Below are positions 14,899 to 19,969 of a DNA stretch of 64,000 bases, piece by piece. The notes under the pieces are model-generated. The model was not told the origin of the DNA and searched no databases. It saw nothing but the letters and a program-made list of their open reading frames with translations. Position 1 is the stretch's first letter. The number at the start of each line of letters is the position of its first letter. The position numbers and the translations under genes were made by a program. Origin of the DNA: Candidatus Saccharimonadota bacterium (GTDB taxonomy: Bacteria; Patescibacteriota; Saccharimonadia; Saccharimonadales; Saccharimonadaceae); NCBI GenBank assembly GCA_017545595.1, contig JAFWLO010000012.1, positions 1-64,000 of the forward strand, written 5' to 3'.

Positions 14899-14926
14899 TT
14901 GATTTCTTATACGTTTTGTATATAAT
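14899..14926 (+). promoter_or_regulatory. Promoter of the candidate retron ncRNA
   Basis: TTGATT (14899-14904), 16-bp spacer, TATAAT (14921-14926). The predicted +1 is about 14933, a few nt upstream of the a1 arm, as expected for a retron transcript. Confidence 0.75.
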
Positions 14927-14932
14927 GAAAGT

Positions 14933-15213
14933 AGGGGGAGAAGTTTAAAATCGATTCAAGTTAGCATACCAGATATAAATCTAGACAATGTAAAATTGCC
15001 TGAACCATTAGCACGGTTCCTTCGTCGGTTGTTGCATCTCTCGTTCATGTTTTATGCATTGAGACATGTAGAAAAAAGACGGTTTTCCGCACTGAAGCTA
15101 CCATAACTTATTTAGTTTCTGCGGTTATTACAGGGTGACCTTATTTTATGTTATGGTAGCGACAGTACAGGAAGCCGTTTTTTTATTTAAGTCGACAGTT
15201 ATTATCAACTTTT
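14933..15213 (+). ncRNA. Candidate retron msr-msd RNA
   Basis: Elements in order. The a1 arm is 14939-14960 and is complementary to the a2 region 15186-15213: TCGATTCAAG pairs with TTTAAGTCGA with one mismatch, then AGAAGTTTAAAA pairs with TTATCAACTTTT with a bulge between. TTAGC follows at 14961-14965, matching the place of the branching guanosine in known retrons such as Ec86. Then come two msr-like hairpins, GAACC/GGTTC (15002-15019) and CATGTTTTA/TGAGACATG (15046-15068). Last is a 112-nt msd-like hairpin (15073-15184): basal AAAAAGACGGT/GCCGTTTTTTT, then TTCC/GGAA, ACTG/CAGT, and a perfect 11-bp stem GCTACCATAAC/GTTATGGTAGC (15097-15107 with 15150-15160). A reverse transcriptase gene lies downstream. 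Confidence 0.75.
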
Positions 15214-15232
15214 ATAAGGAAAGGATACGCCT

Positions 15233-15418
15233 ATGATGGGATCTTTATTCTTCTCAGCTGTTATTGAATCGTGTCACCCTTATCACAAGTTGGTAGGAGT
15301 TTTTAATGCTGGAAAAGGCATTAAGATTCGTGAAGAAAGCACTTTCAATTATCAAATTGATTGTCGAAATCCTCGCGATCTTAAAGAGCTTATTCTAGCT
15401 CCAACTACCAACTTGTAA
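15233..15418 (+). CDS. Small ORF of the retron locus, or a structured RNA
   Basis: 61 residues, MMGSLFFSAVIESCHPYHKL at the start, no known domain. AAGGAAAGG lies 8 nt upstream of the ATG, so translation is plausible. The same DNA contains a perfect 12-bp inverted repeat (15285-15296 with 15405-15416) enclosing three further perfect hairpins, which argues for an RNA structure. It sits between the msr-msd RNA and the XRE gene, on the same strand. Either a small retron accessory protein or a false ORF over a folded RNA; the sequence alone does not decide. Confidence 0.4.
   Translation: MMGSLFFSAVIESCHPYHKLVGVFNAGKGIKIREESTFNYQIDCRNPRDLKELILAPTTNL
15285..15416 (+). ncRNA. Candidate multi-branched structured RNA element
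   Basis: Closing stem ACAAGTTGGTAG/CTACCAACTTGT (12 bp, perfect). Inside are TTAATGC/GCATTAA with loop TGGAAAAG (15303-15324), TCAATT/AATTGA with loop ATCA (15345-15360) and GAGCT/AGCTC with loop TATTCT (15386-15401). The right arm ends 13 nt before the XRE start codon, so the element could regulate the XRE-RT unit or be an operator. Confidence 0.45.
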
Positions 15419-15429
15419 CCGAGATTATT

Positions 15430-15744
15430 ATGTATGATTTTCCAGAATTGTTAAGAAATATAAGGAAAGAGACAAAGCTTACGCAGTCTGAATTAGCGTC
15501 CAAGCTTGGAGTTTCAGCTGTTCTGATTGCCATGATCGAATCAGGCCAAAAAGAGCCATCCAAGAAGTTTGTGGAAATTTTAGCAAACAAGATGGAAGTA
15601 TCCCCTATGGCTATCATCCCCTTTGTTTATTCAGCCAATAAATATTCAGACGATTCAGGTTTCGAAAAACGTCTCTCGCAATTTGGGATGGACCTACAAA
15701 AGCAACTAATCTCTAAGAAAGCTAAGAATATTCTCAAATGTTAA
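15430..15744 (+). CDS. XRE-family helix-turn-helix protein of the retron locus
   Basis: 104 residues. Residues about 6-60 form a Cro/C1-type HTH: LLRNIRKETKLTQSELASKL, GVSAVLIAMIESGQKEPSKK. The C-terminal 40 residues are basic and unassigned. It overlaps the reverse transcriptase gene by 7 nt, so the two are translated together. HTH proteins are known accessory genes of some retron types; it may be the effector/antitoxin partner or simply a repressor of the locus. DNA-binding assignment is firm, role is inferred. Confidence 0.88.
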   Translation: MYDFPELLRNIRKETKLTQSELASKLGVSAVLIAMIESGQKEPSKKFVEILANKMEVSPMAIIPFVYSANKYSDDSGFEKRLSQFGMDLQKQLISKKAKNILKC

Positions 15745-16790
15745 ATCAAGGTTACCCAAAATTAAATCTTTATACTAAAAAACAGTTAGCCGATGCAATT
15801 CGCGGTAAAGACTTGTCGTTTGACTCCGCAATGAAATTGATCGATGATTGCCTTATAAATAAAGATAAATACTGGTCTGATAACTCAGAAGAATCGAAAT
15901 CGAATGAAAATAAATGGGTACGTAATGCTTCTGGAACGCCGCTAGGAAAGCTGCAAAAAAGAATCGACCAGAAAGTCCTAGCACTACATGATAGCGAGCT
16001 CCCAATTTTCATCTATGGCGGCGTTGGCAAAAAAGGAATAAAGAATGCCGTAATCGCCCTCCAAGGTAAGCGAAATAAACGCACTTTATTAAAATTAGAT
16101 ATGAGTCATTTTTTCGAACATATATCGTATGGAGATGTGATAAAAATACTAGTTTGTCACTGTGGTTGCGGCAAAGATGTTGCGCATATAATAGCCGAGA
16201 TAGCCTGTATTCAGAGCGGCAAAAAGTCATCAAACAACACCAACGAAAAAGTCTTGGCGAGAGGTTTTTCTACGTCCAGTCGGCTCGCCGTTTGGCGCAA
16301 TTTGAGCCTATTTAGGAGTCTTTTTTACTGCATGGCGAAAAGGCTCAATAAGCACGATCCAAGAATTGCCGTTTATATGGACGATATAGGTATCACTGCG
16401 AGCAGAATTGATCCTGTTTCGTTATCTTCACTTTATAAAGACATCACTAAGCTTATCGAAAATTCGTCAAAATTAGTAGTGAACAAAAACAAGACAAAAA
16501 TAATCGATTATCTTCAGCACGAATATGACGTCACTGACGGACACTTACTAGAAGACAAAATTGCTCAATTCGAATTTCTTGGAATCGGAATCGGTAGAAA
16601 TCGTTTATATCCAGGCGTTAAAATTCGTAGCAAAATGGCGAAACTGATAAAGAAGTCACACCTTTCCGATGAAGAGTTGCGAACGCTAAAAGGACAAAAA
16701 CGATACGTTAAATTTATTACGGGCAAAAAACTAGGATTACCGCCAAATGACGCATCTCTAAACAGAAAGGGGTTATTATGGCAAAATTAG
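15738..16790 (+). CDS. Retron-type reverse transcriptase
   Basis: 350 residues, within the usual retron RT length. RT core motifs in order: NAVIAL (103-108, in the place of retron motif X, NAxxH), motif A LKLDMSHFF (118-126, catalytic Asp121), motif B GFSTSSRLAVWRNL (176-189), catalytic YMDD (213-216), NKNKTK (249-254) and FLG (280-282). The C-terminus has FITGKK (326-331), reminiscent of the VTG motif of retron RTs. No maturase, endonuclease or En domain follows, which argues against a group II intron. A structured RNA with the layout of msr-msd lies about 0.5 kb upstream under its own promoter. It would copy the msd into branched RNA-linked DNA in an antiphage system. RT call very firm, retron class likely. 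Confidence 0.9.
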   Translation: MLNQGYPKLNLYTKKQLADAIRGKDLSFDSAMKLIDDCLINKDKYWSDNSEESKSNENKWVRNASGTPLGKLQKRIDQKVLALHDSELPIFIYGGVGKKGIKNAVIALQGKRNKRTLLKLDMSHFFEHISYGDVIKILVCHCGCGKDVAHIIAEIACIQSGKKSSNNTNEKVLARGFSTSSRLAVWRNLSLFRSLFYCMAKRLNKHDPRIAVYMDDIGITASRIDPVSLSSLYKDITKLIENSSKLVVNKNKTKIIDYLQHEYDVTDGHLLEDKIAQFEFLGIGIGRNRLYPGVKIRSKMAKLIKKSHLSDEELRTLKGQKRYVKFITGKKLGLPPNDASLNRKGLLWQN

Positions 16791-16918: not shown

Positions 16919-17983
16919 ATGAATTATATTTCAGCAAAAGAAACTGCTACAAAATGGGATATCTCTCAAAGGAGAGTAGCGACTTTATGTTCTGAAGGGC
17001 GCGTTGTTGGCGCCATGTTCGTCGGGAATTCATGGATAATTCCATGTGATGCCGCAAAACCAATAGACGCACGAACGAAAGCCGCATCTTTAGCAAGTAA
17101 CGACGCAAAGCCCTTCCTAAAATGGGCTGGCGGTAAAGGGCAATTGCTCAAAGAAATCGAGCAATACTACCCTTTTACTAAAGATACTACTATAACAAAA
17201 TACGCAGAACCGTTTGTTGGTGGCGGCGCAGTTCTATTCGACATCTTAAATAAGCACGAACTTCAAGAAGTTTATATTAGTGATATCAACGCAGAACTAA
17301 TAAATACGTACACGATAATCCGAGACAATATCGACGCGTTATTAGACATTTTAAAGCGATTTGAGAGCGATTACCTAACATTAGATAACGATGGACGTAA
17401 AGAAGCTTATCTTGCCAAACGTGCGCGATTCAACGAGCTTAAGGGCAGAAAAGAAAACGGAGTCGTGTTAGCTGCCTTGATGATATTCCTTAACAAAACC
17501 TGCTTTAACGGTTTGTATCGCGTAAATCGAAAAGGCGAATACAACGTACCAATGGGTGCCTATAAGAATCCACTTATTTACAATGAGCATAACTTGAAAG
17601 CAGTCTCCAAGAAACTACAGAACGTAAAAATAGTATGTGGCGATTACAAGGAATCTGGTGATTTTATAGATAACAAAACGTTCGTTTACTTCGATCCACC
17701 GTATCGTCCACTAACACCGACTGCCAACTTTACATCATACACAGAGGGCATGTTTGACGATAAGAATCAGTTAGAGCTTGCAAAATTCGTTCAAGAACTA
17801 GACCAAAAAGGAGCTAAGATAGTCGCAAGTAATTCCGATCCAAAGAACACCAACGAAGATGATAACTTCTTCGACGATGCCTACGCAAAACAGAACATCA
17901 AGCGCGTTTCCGCAACACGCATGATAAACCGAAATAGTAACAAACGCGGAAAAATTAACGAATTATTAATATCAAATTTTTAA
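16919..17983 (+). CDS. DNA adenine methylase (Dam/D12 class) with N-terminal HTH
   Basis: 354 residues from the ATG preceded by GAGGTGAT; a start 48 nt upstream has no ribosome-binding site and lies in the promoter. Residues 1-50 are a small excisionase/MerR-like HTH (ISAKETATKWDISQRRVATL). Residues 64-354 are a D12-class N6-adenine methylase: KWAGGK (68-73), FVGGGAVLF (99-107), DPPY catalytic motif (259-262), then NRNSNKRGKINELL near the end. D12 enzymes commonly methylate GATC. It is the first gene of an R-M cluster and would protect self DNA; the HTH may also let it control the operon. Target site is an inference. Confidence 0.93.
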   Translation: MNYISAKETATKWDISQRRVATLCSEGRVVGAMFVGNSWIIPCDAAKPIDARTKAASLASNDAKPFLKWAGGKGQLLKEIEQYYPFTKDTTITKYAEPFVGGGAVLFDILNKHELQEVYISDINAELINTYTIIRDNIDALLDILKRFESDYLTLDNDGRKEAYLAKRARFNELKGRKENGVVLAALMIFLNKTCFNGLYRVNRKGEYNVPMGAYKNPLIYNEHNLKAVSKKLQNVKIVCGDYKESGDFIDNKTFVYFDPPYRPLTPTANFTSYTEGMFDDKNQLELAKFVQELDQKGAKIVASNSDPKNTNEDDNFFDDAYAKQNIKRVSATRMINRNSNKRGKINELLISNF

Positions 17984-17997
17984 AGAAAGGGACAAAA

Positions 17998-18537
17998 ATG
18001 AAGAAAGGTGGCATCTATGGTGGGAATACAAAAACAGGTTTAATCTTTGAGGGCAAAACCGATTTGGCGACATTTCTCTCAAAACAGGATGGTTATCGCG
18101 TAGAGAACGACGAGGAAATTATCTACAATGATGAGCTGGTTGCAAGAGTTTTTAAGAAACACAAATTCTATAATGTATTCCTTAAAGAGCTTGGTATAGA
18201 TTGGGAAGAACATATCTCAAGGCGTCTTTATCCAGATGACAGTATCTACGTTTTGTTGAATAATATACTTTTTATTATTGAGTGTAAACATCAAGAAACG
18301 GAAGGCTCCGTTGACGAGAAACTGCAGACTTGTGATTTTAAGAAAAAACAATATCAAAAATTGATGTCGCAAGCAAATATCGACGTTGAATATATTTACC
18401 TGCTCGATAACTGGTTTAGAGATCCGAAGTATAAGGATGTCCTAGACTACATCCACAGTGTAGGTTGTGATTATTATTTTGAATATATTCCACTGACGAG
18501 ACTTGGCTTGCCGGTTCCAGAAACCGAAGAGGGGTAG
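17998..18537 (+). CDS. PD-(D/E)XK type II restriction endonuclease-like protein
   Basis: 179 residues. Catalytic signature RRLYPDDSIYVLL then LFIIECKHQ: Pro79-Asp80 and Glu95-Cys-Lys97 fit PD-(D/E)XK. This is followed by GSVDEKLQTCDFKKKQY, which I recall from small restriction endonuclease-like proteins. Spaced 14 nt after the Dam-type methylase and 7 nt before a second methylase, i.e. in the middle of a methylase-endonuclease-methylase cassette like DpnII or MboI. It is shorter than the DpnII and MboI endonucleases, so it is not simply their homologue. Would cut unmethylated incoming DNA. Confidence 0.8.
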   Translation: MKKGGIYGGNTKTGLIFEGKTDLATFLSKQDGYRVENDEEIIYNDELVARVFKKHKFYNVFLKELGIDWEEHISRRLYPDDSIYVLLNNILFIIECKHQETEGSVDEKLQTCDFKKKQYQKLMSQANIDVEYIYLLDNWFRDPKYKDVLDYIHSVGCDYYFEYIPLTRLGLPVPETEEG

Positions 18538-18544
18538 ACTACTT

Positions 18545-19303
18545 ATGCCCGACAAGAAAATTACAAAATGGGAACCGGACGACTTTGAACTGGAGATGAC
18601 TAGCGTCTGGAGTTTCCCTAATCGTGGTAATTGGGCTACCCACGATGCGAAATGGCGCGGAAACTGGTCGCCATATATTCCGCGCAATATTCTTCTCCGC
18701 TACTCTAGCGAGGGCGACATGGTGTTAGATCAGTTCGCCGGAGGCGGAACTACTTTAGTAGAGGCGAAATTATTAAATAGAAATATTCTAGGCTTAGACG
18801 TAAACGACGACGCTCTTAAAAGATGCCGAGAAAAGATTAAGTTTAAGCATGACGGCGCCGACGGAAAAGTCTATATCCGTAAGGGAGATGCGCGAAAACT
18901 AAAAGGAGTGCCGAACGATAGTATAGATTTAATATGCACGCATCCGCCTTACGCAAATATTATTCATTATAGCGAGGGTCAAGATATACCGGCCGACCTT
19001 TCGAATTTCAAAGTAGATGAGTTCTTAGAGCAAATGAAAGCCGTTTCAAGTGAAAGTTATCGCGTATTAAAGAAAGGTAAGTTCTGCGCGATTCTAATGG
19101 GCGATACGCGCCAGAAAGGCCATGTTATTCCCCTTAGTTTTAAAACGATGCAAGTATTCGAAGATGCCGGCTTTAAGCTAAAAGAAATCATCATGAAAGA
19201 ACAACATAATTGCCGAGCGACCGGATACTGGAAAACGAATAGCGTTAAATATAATTTCCTATTATTGGCACACGAATATTTATTTATTTTTGAGAAAGGG
19301 TAA
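18545..19303 (+). CDS. Site-specific DNA methyltransferase (N4-cytosine/N6-adenine, beta-type)
   Basis: 252 residues from the ATG that follows GAGGGG; an upstream in-frame ATG would overlap the endonuclease gene. The order of motifs is FPNRGNWATHDAKWRGNW, WSPYIPRN, motif I LDQFAGGGTTLVEA (61-74), IGLDV-like ILGLDVNDDAL, motif IV THPPYANII (132-140), and a late KKGKFCAILMGDTRQKG. THPPY is close to the SPPY of N4-cytosine enzymes, but the class also contains N6-adenine enzymes. Second methylase of the cluster, as in DpnII-type systems where the second enzyme can modify single-stranded DNA. Confidence 0.88.
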   Translation: MPDKKITKWEPDDFELEMTSVWSFPNRGNWATHDAKWRGNWSPYIPRNILLRYSSEGDMVLDQFAGGGTTLVEAKLLNRNILGLDVNDDALKRCREKIKFKHDGADGKVYIRKGDARKLKGVPNDSIDLICTHPPYANIIHYSEGQDIPADLSNFKVDEFLEQMKAVSSESYRVLKKGKFCAILMGDTRQKGHVIPLSFKTMQVFEDAGFKLKEIIMKEQHNCRATGYWKTNSVKYNFLLLAHEYLFIFEKG

Positions 19304-19306
19304 TCC

Positions 19307-19969
19307 GTGAGAAAAACAGTAACTACGAAAAATAATTCAGGCATTGATATAGAATTTCCCAATAAATGTCCGAGATGTCATACTGGGATTTTGCCGACCG
19401 AGCTTTTTGCTTTCGATTATAAGGATAGCAAAAATGCAAGAATTGCTTATGTTGTTTTTCGATGTCCAGTATGCGAAAAACTGTTTTCGACAGAATATTT
19501 GATTAGCGAGCGTGGCGATTCTTTGGTGACTCTACGGAATTACCCGACTATGCATGTCGCCGAAGACTTTAGCGAAGAAATCAAAAAGCTATCGCCTAAG
19601 TTCTGTCAAATTTACAACGAGGCAAATTTTGCAGAAAACGAAAATCTCAACGAAATTGCCGGCATGGGCTACAGGAAAGCGCTAGAGTTTTTGATAAAAG
19701 ATTTTGCTACGAGAAATAATCCAGATAAAAAGAGCGCGATAGAGAAAAGCTGGATAGTTCAATGCATAAAAGACTATATTGATGATAAAAGAATCCAAAA
19801 TCTTGCCGAAAAAGCAGTGTGGCTCTGTAATGACGAGGCGCATTTTCTTAGAGAATATGGAGACATAGATACAGTTAGTAAAATTAAAGTATTTATAAAG
19901 GCAATAGTGAATTTTATTGAATCTTGTCTGGCAGTCGAGGAGGCTGAAAAGATAGAAAAACGAAAATAG
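19307..19969 (+). CDS. Zinc-ribbon DUF4145 protein of the R-M cluster
   Basis: 220 residues, GTG start preceded by GAAAGGG. An N-terminal zinc ribbon is formed by CPRC (21-24) and CPVC (53-56). Residues about 100-210 match the helical DUF4145 pattern (NEIAGMGYRKALEFLIKDFA, GDIDTVSKIKVFIKAIVNFI). DUF4145 domains are often found beside or fused to restriction enzymes and other defence genes. Spacing of 3 nt to the methylase gene shows it belongs to the same operon. The exact role is unknown. Confidence 0.75.
   Translation: MRKTVTTKNNSGIDIEFPNKCPRCHTGILPTELFAFDYKDSKNARIAYVVFRCPVCEKLFSTEYLISERGDSLVTLRNYPTMHVAEDFSEEIKKLSPKFCQIYNEANFAENENLNEIAGMGYRKALEFLIKDFATRNNPDKKSAIEKSWIVQCIKDYIDDKRIQNLAEKAVWLCNDEAHFLREYGDIDTVSKIKVFIKAIVNFIESCLAVEEAEKIEKRK

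Follow-up and report, generated by a model that had tools for sequence, protein, structure and literature searches.

The window analysed here, a stretch of 64,000 nt, sits on contig 9 of a 745-kb genome that is 98.8% complete. On its plus strand, a promoter is followed by structured, untranslated sequence, then by a 61-codon ORF and by genes for an XRE protein and a reverse transcriptase (RT) (Table 1). The original prediction had described a complete-looking retron, close in layout to Ec86, in a genome that was probably from Saccharibacteria. The host was rightly named, as the closest RT relatives (L002, L003 and L004; 80–82% identity) come from three rumen or gut Candidatus Saccharibacteria of the same genus. 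A retron-type cassette is likewise what the RT_VI and HTH_VI profiles and the RT tree point to, but the likeness to Ec86 is not supported, the nearest profiles being those of type VI. Further RT relatives (40–42% identity) were found in the same family (L009 and L010), with another (L015) in a different family of the order.

Table 1. Features of the retron-like cassette and of the island downstream, in positions of the window.
Feature	Position	Strand	Basis or remark
Sigma-70-type promoter, TTGATT-16 nt-TATAAT	14899–14926	+	Sequence; L002/L003/L004 homology begins here; upstream edge of the conserved cassette
Palindrome TATAC-GTTTT-GTATA, proposed XRE operator	14908–14922		In promoter spacer
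a1 element CGATTCAA	14952–14959	+	First half of clamp; pairs with 15264–15271; covarying, 8/8 pairs kept, six loci
TTAGC with candidate branch G14964	14961–14965	+	Candidate of the original prediction
msr-like region, small hairpins	14966–15066	+	Folding
msd-like long hairpin, stem GCTACCATAAC/GTTATGGTAGC, apical loop	15077–15180	+	Folding; stem kept in relatives
X element AGGGTGAC, msd apical loop	15132–15139	+	Second half of clamp; pairs with 15273–15280; compensatory change in 7/8 pairs
Leader ORF, 61 codons, own Shine-Dalgarno AAGGAAAGG	15233–15418	+	Layout identical in six loci; spans hidden ORF
a1' TTGAATCG, inside leader ORF	15264–15271	+	Pairs with a1
X' GTCACCCT, inside leader ORF	15273–15280	+	Pairs with X; one base beyond a1'
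SD-stem 5' arm ACAAGTTGGTAG	15285–15296	+	Includes part of the hidden ORF's Shine-Dalgarno
Hidden-ORF Shine-Dalgarno GGTAGGAG	15292–15299	+	Sequence; conserved in relatives
Hidden ORF, 30 aa MLEKALRFVKKALSIIKLIVEILAILKSLF, predicted amphipathic toxic peptide	15306–15398	+	Selection, amphipathicity, counterparts
SD-stem 3' arm CTACCAACTTGT	15405–15416	+	Overlaps leader stop codon
XRE/HTH protein	15430–15744	+	Pfam HTH_3 E=2.5e-12; best PADLOC profile HTH_VI E=1.2e-14
Reverse transcriptase, 350 aa	15738–16790	+	Pfam RVT_1 E=5.9e-10; best PADLOC profile RT_VI E=2.4e-20
D12-class adenine methyltransferase	16919–17983		Downstream island
PD-(D/E)XK-like protein	17998–18537		Downstream island
N4/N6 DNA methylase	18503–19303		Downstream island, which also holds an unknown ORF

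Both larger proteins are those that had been predicted, and the YMDD motif of the RT is intact at residues 213–216. Among PADLOC profiles the RT scores 71 bits with RT_VI and 50 with the next best. Moreover, RT_VI is the top profile for all seven of the Saccharibacterial RTs examined, although their scores (60–80 bits) lie far below those of type VI RTs from Proteobacteria and Staphylococcus (260–320 bits). An RT tree that took in type VI references, the Ec86, Ec67 and Se72 retron RTs and other Saccharibacterial RTs unites the seven as one clade (100/100), which stands on a long branch beside the type VI references and on the retron side, as the retron assignment required; the other Saccharibacterial RTs lie far from it. 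This long-branch position marks the RT as a divergent outlier. At RT region X the window has NAVIA in place of NAxxH, a divergence that had been noted at the outset, and (A/G)AxxH is kept in L010 and L015. FITG, which had been taken for the VTG motif of region Y, is instead a C-terminal stretch: the VTG position aligns to FLG (FEFLGIG), with FLG, HLG, LLG or VLG throughout the Saccharibacterial clade and VTG or ITG in the type VI references. An HTH DNA-binding protein lies beside the RT in the window (L009 has none), and the small auxiliary gene between ncRNA and HTH gene is present as a hidden 30-aa ORF, described below, and not as the 61-aa ORF. Since architecture and best profiles are those of type VI but two usual retron RT motifs are replaced, we use the term type VI-like, and on these grounds we assign the locus as a divergent type VI-like retron composed of ncRNA, small ORF, XRE and RT. 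A PDB sequence search with the RT returned no match, and an AlphaFold model built from six sequences (pLDDT 46.7) was too poor for a fold search.

Several other RT loci came to light. The window RT has 350 aa compared with 331–333 aa in its relatives; its last ~19 residues (GLPPNDASLNRKGLLWQN, 16720–16790) have no counterpart and look as if the reading frame changed beyond ITGK. In another genome of the family (G010), locus L016 (1084–2223, reverse complement) has an RT gene and a small hydrophobic ORF of 70 aa and lacks an HTH gene; in the tree this RT is sister to the clade of the window RT (91/91). Same-genus Saccharibacteria (G169 and G225) carry a different RT of about 390–400 aa with RYVDDF (L018, L019 and L020), in two copies in G169, which the tree places as not retron-like. 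In Klebsiella michiganensis (L005, 3725–4906) an RT_VI-type RT (283 bits) has a 67-aa hydrophobic ORF directly 5' of it; from its sequence we classify this locus as an HTH-less type VI retron.

The element is patchy. Among 394 family genomes, matches at E<=0.001 were present in 7, and one of these was weak; samples of the order, class and phylum gave no relatives beyond those already used. The viral contigs searched contained no relative, a search of phages and plasmids with the window RT gave no direct match, and nothing in Rfam matches at the locus. When the window is aligned with L002, L003 and L004, conservation begins at the promoter and the upstream flanks are unrelated, so the element is a discrete cassette. 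The locus brings type VI-like retrons into a group of very small, host-dependent bacteria; in the literature that could be searched, retrons and Saccharibacteria are named together in just two incidental mentions. Directly 3' of the retron (16919–19969), as genomic context for a possible anti-phage role, lies a restriction-modification-like island of DNA methyltransferase and nuclease genes, and its first part (16846 onward) is 84–89% identical in six same-genus genomes where no retron adjoins it.

The promoter is present as had been proposed, with its two boxes at 14899–14904 and 14921–14926. The palindrome in its spacer is the sole such site in the window at <=2 mismatches (0.16 expected). 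At the same promoter position L010 and L015, whose RTs are only about 40% identical, carry TATACGTTTCGTATA, and L009 has neither an XRE gene nor a promoter palindrome. This joint presence and absence suggests that XRE represses its own promoter through the palindrome. The simplest form of the system is that of L009, whose retron belongs to the same clade and keeps the leader, the hidden peptide and the clamp but has no XRE or palindrome.

Downstream of the promoter, the small hairpins and the long imperfect msd hairpin that had been described are present and fold, so that an ncRNA of msr-msd type lies 5' of the RT as in retrons. TTAGC is also in place; neither it nor the branch G14964 is conserved in L009, L010 or L015. 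The a2 arm that had been drawn 5' of the small ORF was not confirmed. Within 14933–15213, where covariation of an Ec86-like a1/a2 stem had been expected, the best helix is one of just 7 bp (AGAAGTT/AACTTTT) that is lost in L002, and we rejected it. We see no clear conservation of a canonical a1/a2 stem here, and a1 covaries with a segment within the small ORF.

Three helices (a1:a1', X:X' and the SD stem) are conserved through compensatory change in a six-locus alignment of the elements. Standard pairs occupy 150/150 cells, with 16 of the 25 pairs changed on both sides, a result that 0/500 shuffles gave and that falls to 27–42% pairing with slid partners; these elements were picked after the helices had been seen, and a contiguous-helix search and hold-out loci are the less biased tests. 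A permissive RNAduplex test, in which large internal loops were allowed, left real sequence inseparable from shuffled sequence in most loci, which is why contiguous helices with fixed adjacency, and then hold-out loci, were used. The search fixed no position and imposed only the adjacency rule. It nevertheless found the clamp at leader nt 32–39 and 41–48 in the window, L002, L003, L010 and L015, despite their differing sequences, and, in L009, at the corresponding position (12 + 8 bp). The Fisher p was 1e-8 for 12 loci, which included 8 type VI references. Moreover, X and a1 pair better with the X' and a1' of their own family than with those of another, and swapping X' or a1' abolishes the match. 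As a1:a1' and X:X' cross, they form a pseudoknot. The clamp begins 32 nt 3' of the leader AUG in Saccharibacteria and need not block initiation, a point against the silencing role proposed below. From this computational evidence we consider the anatomy of the cassette as described highly probable, and such covarying elements in ncRNA and ORF make the mechanism answerable by one set of compensatory mutations. Another pairing was seen in the L015 transcript, where a 13-bp helix CTCTGGCTCGCTA/TAGCGAGCCGGAG (195–207 with 430–442, counted from the -10 box) joins the ncRNA to the Shine-Dalgarno arm of the hidden ORF as a second, upstream locking option; the window has a similar 10-bp option (15202–15211 with 15287–15296).

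The original prediction had treated the small ORF as the protein. However, an ORF that overlaps it in the +1 frame, with its ATG at 15306 behind GGTAGGAG, is the selected one. L009, L010 and L015 encode peptides of 29–31 aa and like character in the same place and frame, and across six loci the offset is always +1 and the leader ends 14–20 nt past the peptide stop. In the four close loci, variable columns of the hidden frame number 3/4/11 at codon positions 1/2/3, and all four base differences between L002 and L004 are silent in this frame. Amino-acid differences amount to 23 in the hidden frame compared with 34 in the leader frame, and the mean BLOSUM62 of the changes is 0.78 compared with -0.24. 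A Shine-Dalgarno and ORF of this type arise in 0–3/1000 shuffled sequences. The hidden peptides have high helical moments (p 0.002–0.06). The leader itself looks translated and terminates where the SD stem's 3' arm ends, but its peptide sequence is not conserved: outside the clamp it changes at all codon positions, the N-terminal part included. We tried the 61-aa ORF as effector and rejected it, as its conserved E-S/L-W/C-x-P-Y run is accounted for by RNA pairing and not by a peptide motif; clamp pairing covers these stretches (ESWRPY/ESCHPY), and we therefore read them as an RNA constraint. The substitution pattern indicates that the hidden +1 frame, and not the leader frame, is under selection, and the likely effector is the 30-aa amphipathic peptide. 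Small cationic amphipathic proteins, mostly of about 47–57 aa, occupy this position in type VI loci elsewhere, which makes the hidden ORF a plausible counterpart. An amphipathic peptide behind a locked Shine-Dalgarno may be a hok-like type I toxin, its toxic role being a prediction from sequence. Effectors of such loci can be mis-annotated when the ORF that is readily seen is a leader and the peptide under selection is concealed in another frame. Unannotated small amphipathic ORFs of type VI, each complete and with a Shine-Dalgarno in front, were also noted at L024 (1098–1244), L031 (966–1124), L036 (946–1101) and L037 (930–1091).

These data bear on the Ec86-like reading, in which an a1/a2 stem within 14933–15213 closes the msr-msd and the 61-aa protein is the effector. 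The order of the parts and the hairpins agree with it, but its stem is short and lost in L002, its effector frame changes more and less conservatively, with variation at all codon positions of the N-terminal part, and the RT is nearest to type VI profiles. We regard it as very improbable.

The same bipartite pairing is found in type VI retrons elsewhere: two adjacent stretches of the small ORF pair there with the transcript's 5' end and with ncRNA sequence further along. In the retron of phage KS5 the clamp is of 8 + 13 bp, and MuM16-1, P2_2H1, YenM_56.17 and others have one too. Hold-out loci gave a combined p=3e-4; among them, a Staphylococcus plasmid has a perfect adjacent clamp of 11 + 10 bp and an Acinetobacter locus a perfect one of 7 + 8 bp. 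Some proteobacterial loci (L025, L028, L037 and L038) failed the clamp test individually. Several proteobacterial loci have both a hairpin over the small ORF's own Shine-Dalgarno and an a1/a2-like stem distinct from the clamp, such as ATGGAGAAA/TTTCTCCAT in KS5. Another explanation is that the in-ORF pairing is simply the retron's own a1/a2 stem and serves priming, not translation control. The retron RNA would then reach into the leader ORF, and reverse transcription would begin at that point and run past the leader's ribosome-binding site, which would silence the message. The window offers this some encouragement, in that a1 directly precedes G-TTAGC, as in Ec86, and the upstream a2 is weak. 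However, TTAGC is not conserved, X:X' as the second helix falls past a2 and plays no part in canonical priming, and proteobacterial type VI loci such as KS5 possess a separate a1/a2-like stem besides their clamp. We therefore think it improbable that priming explains the clamp.

Instead, we propose that the locus is an RNA-gated suicide (abortive-infection) cassette of a type VI-like retron. XRE would repress the promoter and keep the operon low. Once the operon is transcribed, a1 and the msd apical loop would clamp the leader ORF silent, and without leader translation the peptide would stay locked in the SD stem, much as hok depends on mok. X lies within the msd, the expected RT template; hence reverse transcription and RNase H would erase X and release translation, and genes for RNases HI and HII are present in the genome. 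RT would thus copy the msd, and RNase H would destroy the msd RNA along with the X half of the clamp. The freed leader would then be translated, its ribosomes would open the lower stem, and the peptide would be made. A membrane-active peptide could damage the membrane and stop or kill the infected cell. The arrangement suggests that the peptide is switched on by the copying of the ncRNA into DNA, and we lean slightly towards the full mechanism with this RT-triggered direction.

The switch could run in the opposite direction, as RT or its complex would be equally able to stabilise the clamp. In that case the ncRNA clamp with bound RT (and msDNA) would be a standing antitoxin, and a phage that destroyed or blocked RT, ncRNA or msDNA would free translation of leader and peptide. 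The covarying clamp fits this equally well, and it would follow the general toxin-antitoxin logic of retrons, with RT-msDNA as antitoxin elsewhere (for example PMC12548924). Against this, the X half sits in the RT template, so that successful reverse transcription would itself open the clamp, and XRE repression suggests an induced system rather than a constitutive guard. We consider the opposite direction rather unlikely.

Extending the RT-triggered mechanism beyond Saccharibacteria is more tentative, and we put it at slightly short of an even chance that the type VI class consists of toxin messages clamped by RNA and triggered by reverse transcription, of which the Saccharibacterial form is a mok/hok-like relay of leader and hidden toxin. 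Copying of the msd and removal of the template by RNase H would, class-wide, erase the RNA that holds the ORF for a toxic peptide shut. The literature that could be searched, with subscription papers and most preprints outside it, gave no published mechanism for type VI retrons, and prior publication is possible.

The type VI class of retrons was reportedly defined by Mestre et al. in 2020. A type VI retron consists of an RT, a DNA-binding protein and a small auxiliary protein, and examples occur in phages KS5, MuM16-1, ST147-VIM1phi7.1 and P2_2H1 (PMC8541194). The window shares with these retrons the order ncRNA, small ORF, HTH and RT, the RT_VI and HTH_VI profiles, a promoter-near inverted repeat, a small cationic amphipathic peptide and the clamp from ncRNA to ORF. 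It differs from them in that its RT is highly divergent and lacks the VTG motif, X lies in the msd apical loop rather than near the msd end, and the predicted toxin has been split off: it follows a leader ORF that it overlaps in the +1 frame, and its separate ribosome-binding site is locked. In hok/mok/sok of plasmid R1, a small hydrophobic peptide needs translation of an overlapping leader, and RNA pairing to the leader provides the control. The window resembles this in layout only, with a peptide tied to an overlapping leader frame and RNA pairing on the leader; its controlling RNA, however, is the retron ncRNA, on the same transcript, with an RT that might erase it. Ec86 (type II-A, Escherichia coli) is similar in its 5' a1-TTAGC, msr hairpins and long msd hairpin, but its effector is a large protein encoded upstream and its RT groups elsewhere in the tree. 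The RT of DRT2 works on a neighbouring pseudoknotted ncRNA, yields a toxic product and builds a new repetitive gene through reverse transcription (PMC12039810). The likeness is an RT beside a pseudoknotted ncRNA that would lead to a toxic product; in the window, in contrast, the toxin gene pre-exists and it is an RNA clamp that would be removed.
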